From Candidatus Alcyoniella australis (GTDB lineage Bacteria; Lernaellota; Lernaellaia; JAVCCG01; Alcyoniellaceae), in NCBI GenBank assembly GCA_030765605.1, contig JAVCCG010000020.1:7039-71038 (forward strand): a stretch of 64,000 bases of DNA. The letters are read 5' to 3'. The translations under genes were made by a program, and so were the position numbers. The notes below the pieces were generated by a model. The model did no database searches, had not been told where the DNA came from, and saw nothing but the letters and a program-made list of their open reading frames with translations. Shown piece after piece: positions 60,619-63,906 of the stretch (position 1 is its first letter; the number at the start of each line of letters is the position of its first letter).

Positions 60619-61299
60619 CTATTCCTTCTGGGCCAGTTCGACCCGCAGCTCGATGGAGCGACCATCGTCGCAGCCGCGTAGCGGCTCGATCATCCCCGAC
60701 AATCCGTGGGCCAGCATGCGCTCGACGAACGGCTTGAGCTCCACCCTGCGTCCGTCCACGCGCAGCTCGGCGCGGGTTGTACGCCTGGCAGGCTCGACGA
60801 ACTCGGCGATCAGCCAGTCGGCCAACGCCGACGGGTCGTCCAGGCCAAAGCGGGGCACGTCGCACTCTAGCTCGTCGTAGTCGGTGATCACCGCCACCAG
60901 CCGCTGATCGGGCCCATCGCAGATCAGCTCGCGGCCCACGGCGCTGCGCAGCAGCTCGATCTTGGGCGCGCTGCCGTGCTTGTAGCCCTCGGTGATCACC
61001 AGGTCGCAACGCGGCAGATAGCGGCTCACCGCCTCGTACACGTCGATTTCGCCTTCGAATCCGGCGATCATGCCCGCTGCCCCCGGCCCGGCCAGCAGCA
61101 CGTGGTCCGCGCCTGCCCGCCGCAAGCGCCAGGTGTCCTTGCCCTCGTGATCCATTTCAAATCCATGGGCGTAATGTTTGACCGCGGCCACGCTCAGGCC
61201 GCGCGCTTTTAGCTCGGGCAGCAGCTTCTCAAGATAGGTCGTCTTGCCCGAGCCGGACCTGCCCACGATGCTGATCAGCGGAATCAACGTTCCTCCCAT
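60619..61299 (-). CDS. mobB: Molybdopterin-guanine dinucleotide biosynthesis protein B
   Basis: GTP-binding partner of MobA in molybdenum-cofactor maturation; 226 residues. The N terminus IPLISIVGRSGSGKTTYLEKLL contains the P-loop (cut short here), followed by AVKHYAHGFEMDHEGKDTWR and LVITEGYKHG, all typical of MobB. The last ~55 residues (ELRVDGRRVELKPFVERML) are a C-terminal extension. ATG 61299 has AGAGG upstream; a TTG at 61287 with GGGAGG, overlapping the fdhD stop, is an alternative and would match the usual MIPL start. It lies behind fdhD, consistent with formate-dehydrogenase assembly. Confidence 0.92.
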   Translation of the reverse strand: MGGTLIPLISIVGRSGSGKTTYLEKLLPELKARGLSVAAVKHYAHGFEMDHEGKDTWRLRRAGADHVLLAGPGAAGMIAGFEGEIDVYEAVSRYLPRCDLVITEGYKHGSAPKIELLRSAVGRELICDGPDQRLVAVITDYDELECDVPRFGLDDPSALADWLIAEFVEPARRTTRAELRVDGRRVELKPFVERMLAHGLSGMIEPLRGCDDGRSIELRVELAQKE

Positions 61300-62078
61300 A
61301 CGATCCTCTGTGCATTGGCAAAAACCCTGAAGCGATCGCCGCGCGCCGATCCGACCAGCGTGACGCCCGTGCTGTGCGCCAGTTCCACCGCCAGACTGGT
61401 AGGCGCGGCGCGGCTGATCAGCAGCGGCACACCCAGACGCGCGGTCTTGATCAGCATTTCGCTGCTGATGCGACCGGTGCACAGCAGGCAGTAGCGCGCC
61501 GGATCCAGGCCGTCGAGCAGACAGCGCCCGGCCAGCTTGTCCACGGCGTTGTGGCGGCCCACATCCTCGCGCAGCAGGCGGATACCGTCCTCGTCGGCCA
61601 GCGCCGCTCCGTGTACACCGTTGGTGAGGTGATGCAGCTGTGTGGCCTTTTCAGTCAGCTCGCTGATCAGCACGCTAATCCGTGACGCGGCGATCTGCAA
61701 CCCGTCGCGCACCCTAAGCTCTCCGGCTCTGCCCGCGTCAAGCGCCCCGCGGCCCAGGGTTCCCTTGCCCAGGCCGCTGGTCACCAGCCGCTCGTTTGCC
61801 GGCATGCAACCCGGCGCCGCGACCTTGGCGCAAATCGAGTCGCCATCGTCCTCAATGCTCAGCTTTTCGATCTGGTCCGCCGAGCTAATCGCTCCGTCGG
61901 CCAACAGAAAGCCCACGGTCAACTCGTCGGGGTATTCGGGCGTGCATAGCAACGTAGCCGCCCTCTCGCCGTTGAGCTCGATGCTCAAGGTCACCTCGCG
62001 GGCCAGCTCGATCGCGCAGCTTTTTCGCTGCTGGTCGAGGACTTCGATCGTCACGGCGCGGGGGTCAATAGGCTTCAT
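61284..62078 (-). CDS. fdhD: Formate dehydrogenase accessory protein FdhD, catalytic cysteine absent
   Basis: FdhD transfers sulfur from a cysteine desulfurase to the molybdenum cofactor of formate dehydrogenase. 264 residues, the family size. DELTVGFLLADGAI, LREDVGRHNAVDKLAG and TGRISSEMLIKTARLGVPLLIS are conserved. The loop that normally carries the sulfur-binding Cys (CxxC, or a single Cys in TSGCGKG-type versions) reads VTSGLGKG, with Leu103 in place of Cys. ATG 62078 is preferred to a GTG at 62108; neither has a strong ribosome site. It overlaps mobB by 16 bases. Confidence 0.9.
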   Translation of the reverse strand: MKPIDPRAVTIEVLDQQRKSCAIELAREVTLSIELNGERAATLLCTPEYPDELTVGFLLADGAISSADQIEKLSIEDDGDSICAKVAAPGCMPANERLVTSGLGKGTLGRGALDAGRAGELRVRDGLQIAASRISVLISELTEKATQLHHLTNGVHGAALADEDGIRLLREDVGRHNAVDKLAGRCLLDGLDPARYCLLCTGRISSEMLIKTARLGVPLLISRAAPTSLAVELAHSTGVTLVGSARGDRFRVFANAQRIVWEER

Positions 62079-62130: not shown

Positions 62131-62153
62131 GGGCCGGGGACACGCCCCGGCCC
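62131..62153 (-). terminator. Terminator of the B12-riboswitch-controlled lipoprotein gene
   Basis: A perfect nine-base stem GGGCCGGGG / CCCCGGCCC with a five-base loop is followed on the minus strand by UUUGUUUG. It separates the lipoprotein gene from fdhD-mobB. Confidence 0.85.
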
Positions 62154-62177: not shown

Positions 62178-63626
62178 TTAGCGCCAGCCGATGATGTCCT
62201 GCGGGAAGAATGTGCCGAACTCGTATGCAGTGCCCACCGTCCAATCGATGGGATTGATCGGGTAGACCTTGCCATTGAGGAAGTCGGAGGCAAACACCGT
62301 GTTGTCCGAGTAGACCGCGAGCCGCGATACATAACTGCAACCCGGGATAATGATCGGATTGCCCGCGCCGCGTGTCCAAATGCCGCTTTCGATGATGTAA
62401 ACGTAGATCTTGCCATCGCTGCTGTCGGCAACCACCAGCTGCCCATCCAGGGTCATCACTGCCGGCCCGGGGGCAACGCCGATGCTCAGCGTCTCGGTGA
62501 TCGTATTGTTCGAGGCGTCGATCACGTCGATCGAACCGTTTACCGTGGCGCCGTAGTCGCCGGAGTTGATCGCATAGACCGTCTCGCCGTCGATGGACGT
62601 CACTACGTTGGTGGTGTTCAGCCCGCTGGTGGGGATAATCGCGTTCAGCGTGAAGCTCCCCGGATCGACAACTGCCACGCCCGGATCGTCGCCGTAGGTG
62701 TAGCTCGTCAGGTCGTAGTCGCTTAGCGCAATGTAGAGATTGCCGCGCGCACGGGTGATCTCGGTCGGCGCCGAACCCGAGGGCAGGCCGACGTAGCCGA
62801 CCTTCACGCCCTTGTTCAAATTCACGCCCAACACGCCGTCACCCAGATTGCTTGTGACCCAGGCCACATCGTCGGCCACCACCACGGACCACGGAGAGTC
62901 GGTGTAGAGCTGAATCGAGTAGAAGTCCTTGGTCCACAGATCGACGATCAATAGTTGCTCGTCGCCGTTGATGCCCGCGCCGTAATCGCCCGAATCGACG
63001 ATCACCAGCGAGTCGTAGTACAGGTCGACATCATTGGGCACGTTGAGCTGTACGGCGTCAGAGGCCAGGATGTCGTCCACCGTGGCGCCCGTGGCCGTAT
63101 CGAACTGGCCCAGCAGGCCGCCGATGCCGTCAACCACGAACACGTCGGGGCCGACGAACACGTCCAGCGTGCCCTCTTTCCCCTGGGCCTCGGCACTGAT
63201 CGTCGCGGTTCCGACGGCCTCGCCGGTGACGTAACCGTATTCGTCGACCGTGGCCACCGCATCGCTGGACGAGCTCCAGGTAAAGGTGATGCCGCTCATT
63301 TCGTCGCCGAGGTTGTCAAAGGCAGTAGCAACGTAGGTCGTCTCGTCGCCCACGGCCACAGCCGGGTCATCGGTGGCCACGAGGATCTCGTTAATAAAAA
63401 CGTCATCGTCGTCGTCGTCATCATCATCGTCGTCGTCGATGTCGTCATCATCGTCGTCGTCCACGTCGTCGTCGTCCACGTCGTCGTCATCGTCGTCGTC
63501 CCCGGATCGCCCGCCCGAGCTGCCGTCGTCGTCGTCCGATGAACAGGCGCCGACTACCAGCACCATGCTCAACGTCGCGAACAGCACCAGCAATAAAACA
63601 GCCCATTTAGAAGCCCAGTCCTTCAT
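62178..63626 (-). CDS. Asp-rich beta-propeller lipoprotein under cobalamin-riboswitch control (BtuG-like)
   Basis: 482 residues. Lipobox VVGAC (Cys28), then poly-Asp tracts at ~43-75. A Big2-type Ig module follows (~78-155, with EAVGTATISAEAQGK). The C-terminal ~320 residues are a YncE/YVTN-like beta-propeller with repeated blades such as SLVIVDSGDYGAGINGDEQ and VYAINSGDYGATVNGS, each a 'SGDYG' loop. A cobalamin riboswitch lies directly upstream and a terminator downstream, so it is a monocistronic, probably B12-repressed gene. Bacteroides BtuG is also a surface beta-propeller lipoprotein that binds B12 and is B12-riboswitch regulated. Homology was not tested; the ligand is inference. GAGGAGG precedes the ATG. 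Confidence 0.82.
   Translation of the reverse strand: MKDWASKWAVLLLVLFATLSMVLVVGACSSDDDDGSSGGRSGDDDDDDDVDDDDVDDDDDDDIDDDDDDDDDDDDVFINEILVATDDPAVAVGDETTYVATAFDNLGDEMSGITFTWSSSSDAVATVDEYGYVTGEAVGTATISAEAQGKEGTLDVFVGPDVFVVDGIGGLLGQFDTATGATVDDILASDAVQLNVPNDVDLYYDSLVIVDSGDYGAGINGDEQLLIVDLWTKDFYSIQLYTDSPWSVVVADDVAWVTSNLGDGVLGVNLNKGVKVGYVGLPSGSAPTEITRARGNLYIALSDYDLTSYTYGDDPGVAVVDPGSFTLNAIIPTSGLNTTNVVTSIDGETVYAINSGDYGATVNGSIDVIDASNNTITETLSIGVAPGPAVMTLDGQLVVADSSDGKIYVYIIESGIWTRGAGNPIIIPGCSYVSRLAVYSDNTVFASDFLNGKVYPINPIDWTVGTAYEFGTFFPQDIIGWR
63401..63538 (-). repeat. GAC/GAT trinucleotide tract encoding poly-Asp
   Basis: Runs of GAC and GAT codons on the minus strand, broken by single Val or Ile codons and by the segment encoding GSSGGRSG. 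Confidence 0.9.
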
Positions 63627-63730
63627 CGATTCCTCCTCGAATCTTTCGCCGTCATCCGCGGCGGTTTGGTGTTTGACCCAAGGATCGGACCGCGCTCGTG
63701 CGCTGAAAATATCCTGCTCCTCAGGCCTGC

Positions 63731-63877
63731 GACGGGGAGGTATTCCGACTCATGGATCGCCCTACTTGCGACGCCTTCCCGGGCCGTAGCCCAGTGGCTG
63801 CATGCCGCTTTCGTCCCCACTTACGGCGGCGGGACCGTGCCGGAATTCAACCGGCTTCCCTCGCCCGAAGCCTCCAC
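63731..63877 (-). promoter_or_regulatory. Cobalamin (B12) riboswitch
   Basis: Read on the minus strand, the conserved parts appear in order: GAGGGAAGCCGG, then TTGAATTCCGGCACGG, CCCGCCGCCGTAA and GGGGACGAAAG, then the B12-box parts CAGCCACTG and CGGGAAGGCG, then GATCCATGAGTCGGAATACC. GGAGG at 63871-63875 can pair with CCTCC at 63736-63740 to close the aptamer. The 3' end lies ~105 bases upstream of the lipoprotein ATG at 63626. No U-rich terminator lies in between, so control is probably at translation initiation. Confidence 0.93.
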
Positions 63878-63906
63878 ATTGTCATTGCAAAGCCGATTCC
63901 TGTCAA
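63878..63906 (-). promoter_or_regulatory. Sigma-70-like promoter for the riboswitch transcript
   Basis: On the minus strand TTGACA (63901-63906), a 17-base spacer and GACAAT (63878-63883). Transcription would begin at the first base or so of the closing stem of the aptamer, so the leader would be essentially the riboswitch itself. Confidence 0.55.

Follow-up and report, generated by a model that had tools for sequence, protein, structure and literature searches.

The closest described counterparts of the protein reported here are BtuG1, BtuG2, and BtuG3 of Bacteroides thetaiotaomicron (DUF5074; PDB codes 3dsm, 8bmy, 8bai, 8okv, and 8blw), negatively charged, seven-bladed propeller lipoproteins that are controlled by cobalamin riboswitches and linked to BtuB systems. 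The negative charge of the BtuG face has been described (PMC10404256), and the residues of BtuG2 that contact the ligand include Trp194, Trp272, and Tyr316, of which Trp194 narrows the ligand cavity. Femtomolar affinity for corrinoids and exposure at the cell surface are further hallmarks of BtuG. Wexler et al. (PMC6143338) found BtuG homologues in Bacteroidetes only (BlastP, E 1e-10, 313 gut genomes) and asked why one phylum alone had gained a B12-capture lipoprotein. A literature search on the combination of cobalamin riboswitch and propeller gave no match; BtuG in uncultured phyla may be covered elsewhere.

The locus compared with these systems lies in a 64-kb stretch of DNA (the window) from a genome, G000, of the GTDB phylum FEN-1099, which equals Ca. 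Lernaellota/Podoxiota. An earlier note, made from the sequence alone, had suspected a deltaproteobacteria-like lineage. It was right in looking outside Bacteroidota, but the actual group is FEN-1099, and only the labels of its MAGs read “Deltaproteobacteria bacterium,” as in the contig of G006 (PMZC01000091.1, “Deltaproteobacteria bacterium isolate fen_1099”). For G005, the contig is JAOSJX010000002.1 (isolate FR_14, FEN-1099), and the placement of G005, G006, and the window in one class follows the kinship assignment of the genome collection.

Near its end, the window carries on the minus strand a promoter, an aptamer, a ribosome-binding site, and a gene, in this order. The sigma-70-like promoter (TTGACA-N17-GACAAT, 63878–63906) agrees with 10 of 12 consensus positions and stops just short of the aptamer; three promoter-like sites were found in the region versus 0.8 expected. 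The cobalamin riboswitch aptamer (RF00174, 63738–63861) scored 83.6 bits (E 4e-19; gathering score, 31.5 bits) with the conserved core matched and is the sole Rfam match across the window. The match spans model positions 45–169 only, and the P1/P2 portion is short. Transcription of the riboswitch leader probably starts near 63872. Between aptamer and ORF lies the expression-platform region (63627–63737), in which the ribosome-binding site AGGAGG (63637–63632) occupies the loop of a small GATTC/GAATC hairpin (63643–63628). No terminator was seen in the leader on the coding strand of the gene, and the folding energy of the leader RNA (z −0.25) speaks neither for nor against a platform structure. 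From the hairpin around the ribosome-binding site and the lack of a terminator hairpin on the coding strand, we infer translational control. Behind the gene, a strong intrinsic terminator (GGGCCGGGG-CGTGT-CCCCGGCCC with a T-rich tail, 62131–62153, minus strand) closes the unit. With a promoter just before the aptamer and a terminator after the gene, this is a single-gene unit, as the earlier note had read it. Past the terminator lie fdhD and mobB (60619–62075, minus strand), which belong to formate dehydrogenase and molybdopterin maturation and are apparently unrelated to B12. The upstream side of the unit stops 94 bases beyond the promoter, where the window ends together with its contig (C20:71038).

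The gene (62178–63626, minus strand) encodes a lipoprotein of 482 amino acids that comprises an Ig-like domain and a seven-bladed propeller, as judged from the ORF, Pfam, and the predicted fold. Residues 1–75 (63402–63626) form the signal peptide, the lipobox (VGA-C28), and an acidic poly-Asp stretch with 34 Asp/Glu in residues 28–75. A Big_2 bacterial Ig-like domain follows (residues 76–158, 63153–63401; Pfam match at residues 113–148, E 4e-7), which was matched in 9 of 11 members of the protein's family. The C-terminal propeller (residues 159–482, 62181–63152) has a net charge of about −30, and its 324 residues gave no significant match in Pfam or NCBIfam. Repeated SGDYG loops, which had been read from the sequence together with the Ig module and the propeller, occur twice: the first (residues 212–216, 62979–62993) lies within the invariant columns of a clade motif GDxGxGxxGxE, and the second (residues 355–359, 62550–62564) corresponds to CTG[DN][YWF], a motif of the family.

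A poly-Asp stretch directly behind the lipobox is found in dozens of unrelated G000 lipoproteins on many contigs and is a lineage-wide trait; it is through the signal/poly-Asp stretch that the window protein matches dozens of other ORFs of this genome. Negative charge is general in the lineage as well. The proposal that poly-Asp serves as a specific signal for surface display was therefore rejected, the stretch being genome-wide.

The AlphaFold2 model, calculated from the window protein and 10 relatives, reaches a pLDDT of 91.7 and a pTM of 0.87 and shows seven blades. When the model was searched with Foldseek, the nearest solved structures were those of BtuG3, BtuG2, and BtuG1 (8okv, 3dsm, 8bmy, and 8bai), most of them with bound cobalamin (E 1e-14 for 8okv to 4e-13; target-normalized TM 0.75–0.82). 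In VIA-align, BtuG1–3 superpose with Z-scores of 33–35 and an rmsd of about 2.3 over about 300 residues, at a sequence identity of about 15–17%. Seven-bladed propellers other than BtuG gave comparable values, with 1l0q highest at Z 37, YncE at Z 32, and several more at 31–33. Because these align about as well, the BtuG-like fold alone is no proof of function. YncE/YVTN propellers (3vgz, 1l0q) share fold and blade repeats with the window protein; to our knowledge, neither a role in B12 metabolism nor a linkage to riboswitches is known for them.

A scan of the genome contigs with the single sequence of the window protein found no relative. Orthologues are present in all seven genomes of the class (FEN-1099/Ca. 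Lernaellota) in the collection, each from another genus, with only 27–32% identity over the Ig domain and propeller. All seven retain the lipoprotein Cys, and all seven genes have a cobalamin riboswitch directly upstream. For G003 and G005, the best-scoring model was that of the AdoCbl riboswitch (RF01482). In the leaders of G003, G005, and G001, the gene is preceded by a GC-rich hairpin and a T-rich tail, which suggests transcriptional control at these loci. The class also contains Ig-propeller lipoprotein paralogues without a riboswitch (L066:6346–8199, L067:6202–7680, L069:6811–8262, and L068:6344–7797), and the Ig-propeller architecture is therefore not specific to B12. The paralogues of G002 (L069) and G004 (L067) have similar surroundings with radical-SAM/lipoate synthase-like, MurC-like, and ApbE-like genes.

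In three of the seven genomes, the orthologue heads an operon with B12-uptake genes. The riboswitch and orthologue are followed by BtuG-like, BtuF-like (Peripla_BP_2, E 4e-27), BtuH-like, CobU, and CobT genes in G003, by BtuH-like, BtuG-like, and BtuB genes in G005, and by a BtuH-like gene in G001. The BtuB of G005 (L058:7804–9724, minus strand) is split into two overlapping frames by a frameshift or an assembly error in an otherwise complete operon. In the other four genomes (G000, G002, G004, and G006), no further gene accompanies the orthologue, and BtuH-like and BtuG-like genes lie under a second riboswitch, where among these four they are followed by BtuB in G000 only (TIGR01779, E 8e-62, yet under the cut-off of the model). 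The window gene itself is not beside btuB, with fdhD downstream and the contig end upstream, and an orthologue shares the BtuB operon in G005 only. Each of the seven genomes has one BtuB homologue and 45–74 B12-binding domains, CbiC is absent from all seven, and CobU is clear in G003 and G005 only. The missing CbiC and the many B12-binding domains are consistent with a dependence of the class on imported corrinoid, as far as one family in place of a full pathway analysis can indicate.

The BtuG-like propeller of the class (386 amino acids in G000, contig C35; alignment A2) resembles the window protein and likewise resides in riboswitch operons, in the company of BtuB and BtuH-like genes. In contrast to the window protein, it is without an Ig domain, has a shorter acidic stretch, and occurs with BtuB in G000 and G005. 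Homology between the two types is shown by hhalign (99.6%, E 1e-23). In a tree of 36 sequences, a clade with support of 100/99 unites the seven window-type propellers, and a separate one (97/87 with G049) holds the BtuG-like propellers of the class. The BtuG of genome G349 is placed tentatively on the window side. At E 0.001, a search for DUF5074 (PF16819) matched neither the window protein nor any of the seven class genomes; it did hit G349 (5.7e-22) and the control Bacteroides ihuae. Window-type proteins retain the majority of the family loops, among them NPW, FxYxDPG, and [CS]xG[DN][YWF], and the loop of Trp194 in BtuG2 aligns with the conserved [CS]xG[DN][YWF] loop, by a numbering inferred from chain offsets. 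The blade-2 motif NSxSN of most riboswitch-linked propellers is replaced by GDxGxGxxGxE.

The window protein thus shares with BtuG1–3 the seven-bladed propeller lipoprotein build, the control by a cobalamin riboswitch, the negative charge, and the link to BtuB systems. It differs from them by an additional Ig domain, a poly-Asp stalk, a riboswitch unit of its own that is not beside btuB, the absence of DUF5074 and of the Bacteroidetes lipoprotein export signal, and its phylum. The identification as a BtuG orthologue was rejected on the absence of DUF5074, the tree, and the presence of a more BtuG-like propeller in the class; with DUF5074 membership searched for and absent, we do not file the protein as BtuG. 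Of the BtuG-like capture protein proposed in the earlier note, there stands a riboswitch-controlled, BtuG-like propeller lipoprotein of a non-Bacteroidota lineage, tied to B12 uptake by the operons of its relatives. The outcomes in sequence and fold that would have spoken against the proposal, a missing aptamer and a propeller unlike BtuG, did not occur. That it is the BtuG of its genome as such is not supported, given the missing DUF5074, ∼15% identity, the distance from btuB, and a closer candidate that lies with BtuB. That the protein works like BtuG has good support from regulation, context, and fold, and we read it as a second propeller, particular to its clade, within a BtuB/BtuG/BtuH-like uptake system outside Bacteroidota.

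The likeness to BtuH and to the BtuG1–BtuH fusion (7biz, 8blw) belongs to the neighboring protein and not to the window protein. A BtuH-like gene lies beside the BtuG-like gene (L004:10908–11888, minus strand; also in L060, L061, L062, L058, and L056). The BtuH-like protein of G000 (326 amino acids) matches NCBIfam LIC_13355 weakly, under the cut-off, and its model is modest (pLDDT 69). Compared with 984 chains by VIA, the model aligns best with BtuH2 (7biz, residues 318–592, Z 13.8) and second best with the BtuH domain of BtuG1 (8blw_B, residues 392–660, Z 12.0), and the next row reaches 10.6. A sequence search against the PDB gave no match, so the likeness is one of fold comparison only. Propeller and BtuH-like domain are fused in G063 (L102), G050 (L108), and G195 (L116), with the BtuH-like domain behind the propeller in the same order as in the BtuG1–BtuH fusion. 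These fused propellers lie downstream of a cobalamin riboswitch and a TonB receptor, and the proteins of G050 and G195 end in a tail like a type IX sorting signal. In G049, a 689-residue lipoprotein (L064:7697–9766) with Ig-like repeats and a propeller-like C terminus is built like the window protein, under the profile threshold; downstream of a cobalamin riboswitch, its gene is flanked by those of a BtuG-like propeller and a BtuH-like protein. The LIC_13355 family of Leptospira has been studied for host binding, with B12 not mentioned (PMC11891782). LIC_13355 may itself bind corrinoids.

We consider it probable that the window unit is a cobalamin-repressed corrinoid-capture module whose lipoprotein works with the single BtuB of the genome. 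At low cellular corrinoid, the riboswitch would permit expression of the lipoprotein, which would be placed in the outer membrane. The acidic stalk and the Ig domain would hold the strongly negative propeller off the membrane, and the top face of the propeller would bind corrinoids as in BtuG. The corrinoid would then be handed over at the cell surface to BtuB, which is encoded with the BtuG-like and BtuH-like proteins behind the second riboswitch, for TonB-driven import.

The protein could instead assist B12 uptake under riboswitch control without binding corrinoid, for example by covering the BtuB/BtuG-like/BtuH-like proteins as a lid, by scaffolding them, or by helping in their assembly, with Ig domain and propeller serving protein contacts. 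Binding could then be left to the separate BtuG-like and BtuH-like proteins of the same genomes, and the exchange of NSxSN for GDxGxGxxGxE would fit such a change of role. We regard this as unlikely, since in four of the seven genomes (G000, G002, G004, and G006) the gene keeps a riboswitch unit of its own at a distance from btuB, which would be odd for a lid, top-face loops such as [CS]xG[DN][YWF] are retained, and several B12-binding lipoproteins per system also occur in Bacteroides (PMC8941943, PMC13398666).

Genes for cobalt transport and for B12-independent isozymes can likewise stand under cobalamin riboswitches. A B12-repressed surface protein could accordingly have another purpose, either in binding cobalt or another metal, to which the conserved GDxGxGxxGxE loop and the acidic face might lend themselves, or as a B12-independent substitute when B12 is short. 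The operons shared with BtuF-like, BtuH-like, CobU, CobT, and BtuB genes, BtuG as the nearest structure, and the lack of a recognizable cobalt transporter beside the gene in the loci read make this quite improbable. That an ordinary poly-Asp lipoprotein came by chance to stand behind the leftover riboswitch of another gene is scarcely credible: dozens of poly-Asp ORFs in G000 and a contig that stops 94 bases past the promoter would allow it, but the riboswitch directly upstream in all seven diverged genomes contradicts it.

We searched 386 genomes with a propeller-only profile (E ≤ 1e-10). Related propellers were found in 59 genomes, of which 52 do not belong to the class and are, by the kinship of the collection, kin to the window at the domain level only. 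Some of these 52 may be Bacteroidota, and G349 probably is, in view of its DUF5074 match (5.7e-22). For 41 of the 60 outside propellers (38 genomes), a cobalamin riboswitch precedes the gene on its own strand at a distance of up to 8 kb, where rough chance expectation is about 0.15–0.2% each. The commonest gap between riboswitch and propeller, 2.3–2.6 kb, is occupied by a TonB receptor, and a BtuB-like TonB receptor is present in 17 of 20 loci read, the weakest matches of which could be other TonB receptors. Several outside propellers carry putative C-terminal tails resembling type IX sorting domains.

These profile searches place related propellers behind cobalamin riboswitches in dozens of families beyond the phylum of the window. 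Together with the BtuB/BtuG-like/BtuH-like set of Lernaellota, these propellers run counter to the statement that BtuG is confined to Bacteroidetes and suggest that B12 capture by propellers is far more widespread than published. A partial prior hint came from B12-binding DUF4465 proteins of eight clades, which often have DUF5074 propellers and TonB receptors in their vicinity (PMC13398666). We tentatively propose that propeller capture, by a BtuG-like protein with BtuB, often a BtuH-like protein, and cobalamin riboswitches, is an old and widespread outer-membrane strategy of many phyla and no invention of gut Bacteroidetes. In Lernaellota, it would have diverged into two propellers, one with BtuB and the other a stalked Ig-propeller that has a riboswitch to itself and acts as a free capture protein. 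A possible role for the LIC_13355 lipoprotein family also emerges. If corrinoid binding holds true, this capture strategy would be no specialty of the gut, and competition for B12 in the environment would become readable from genomes.
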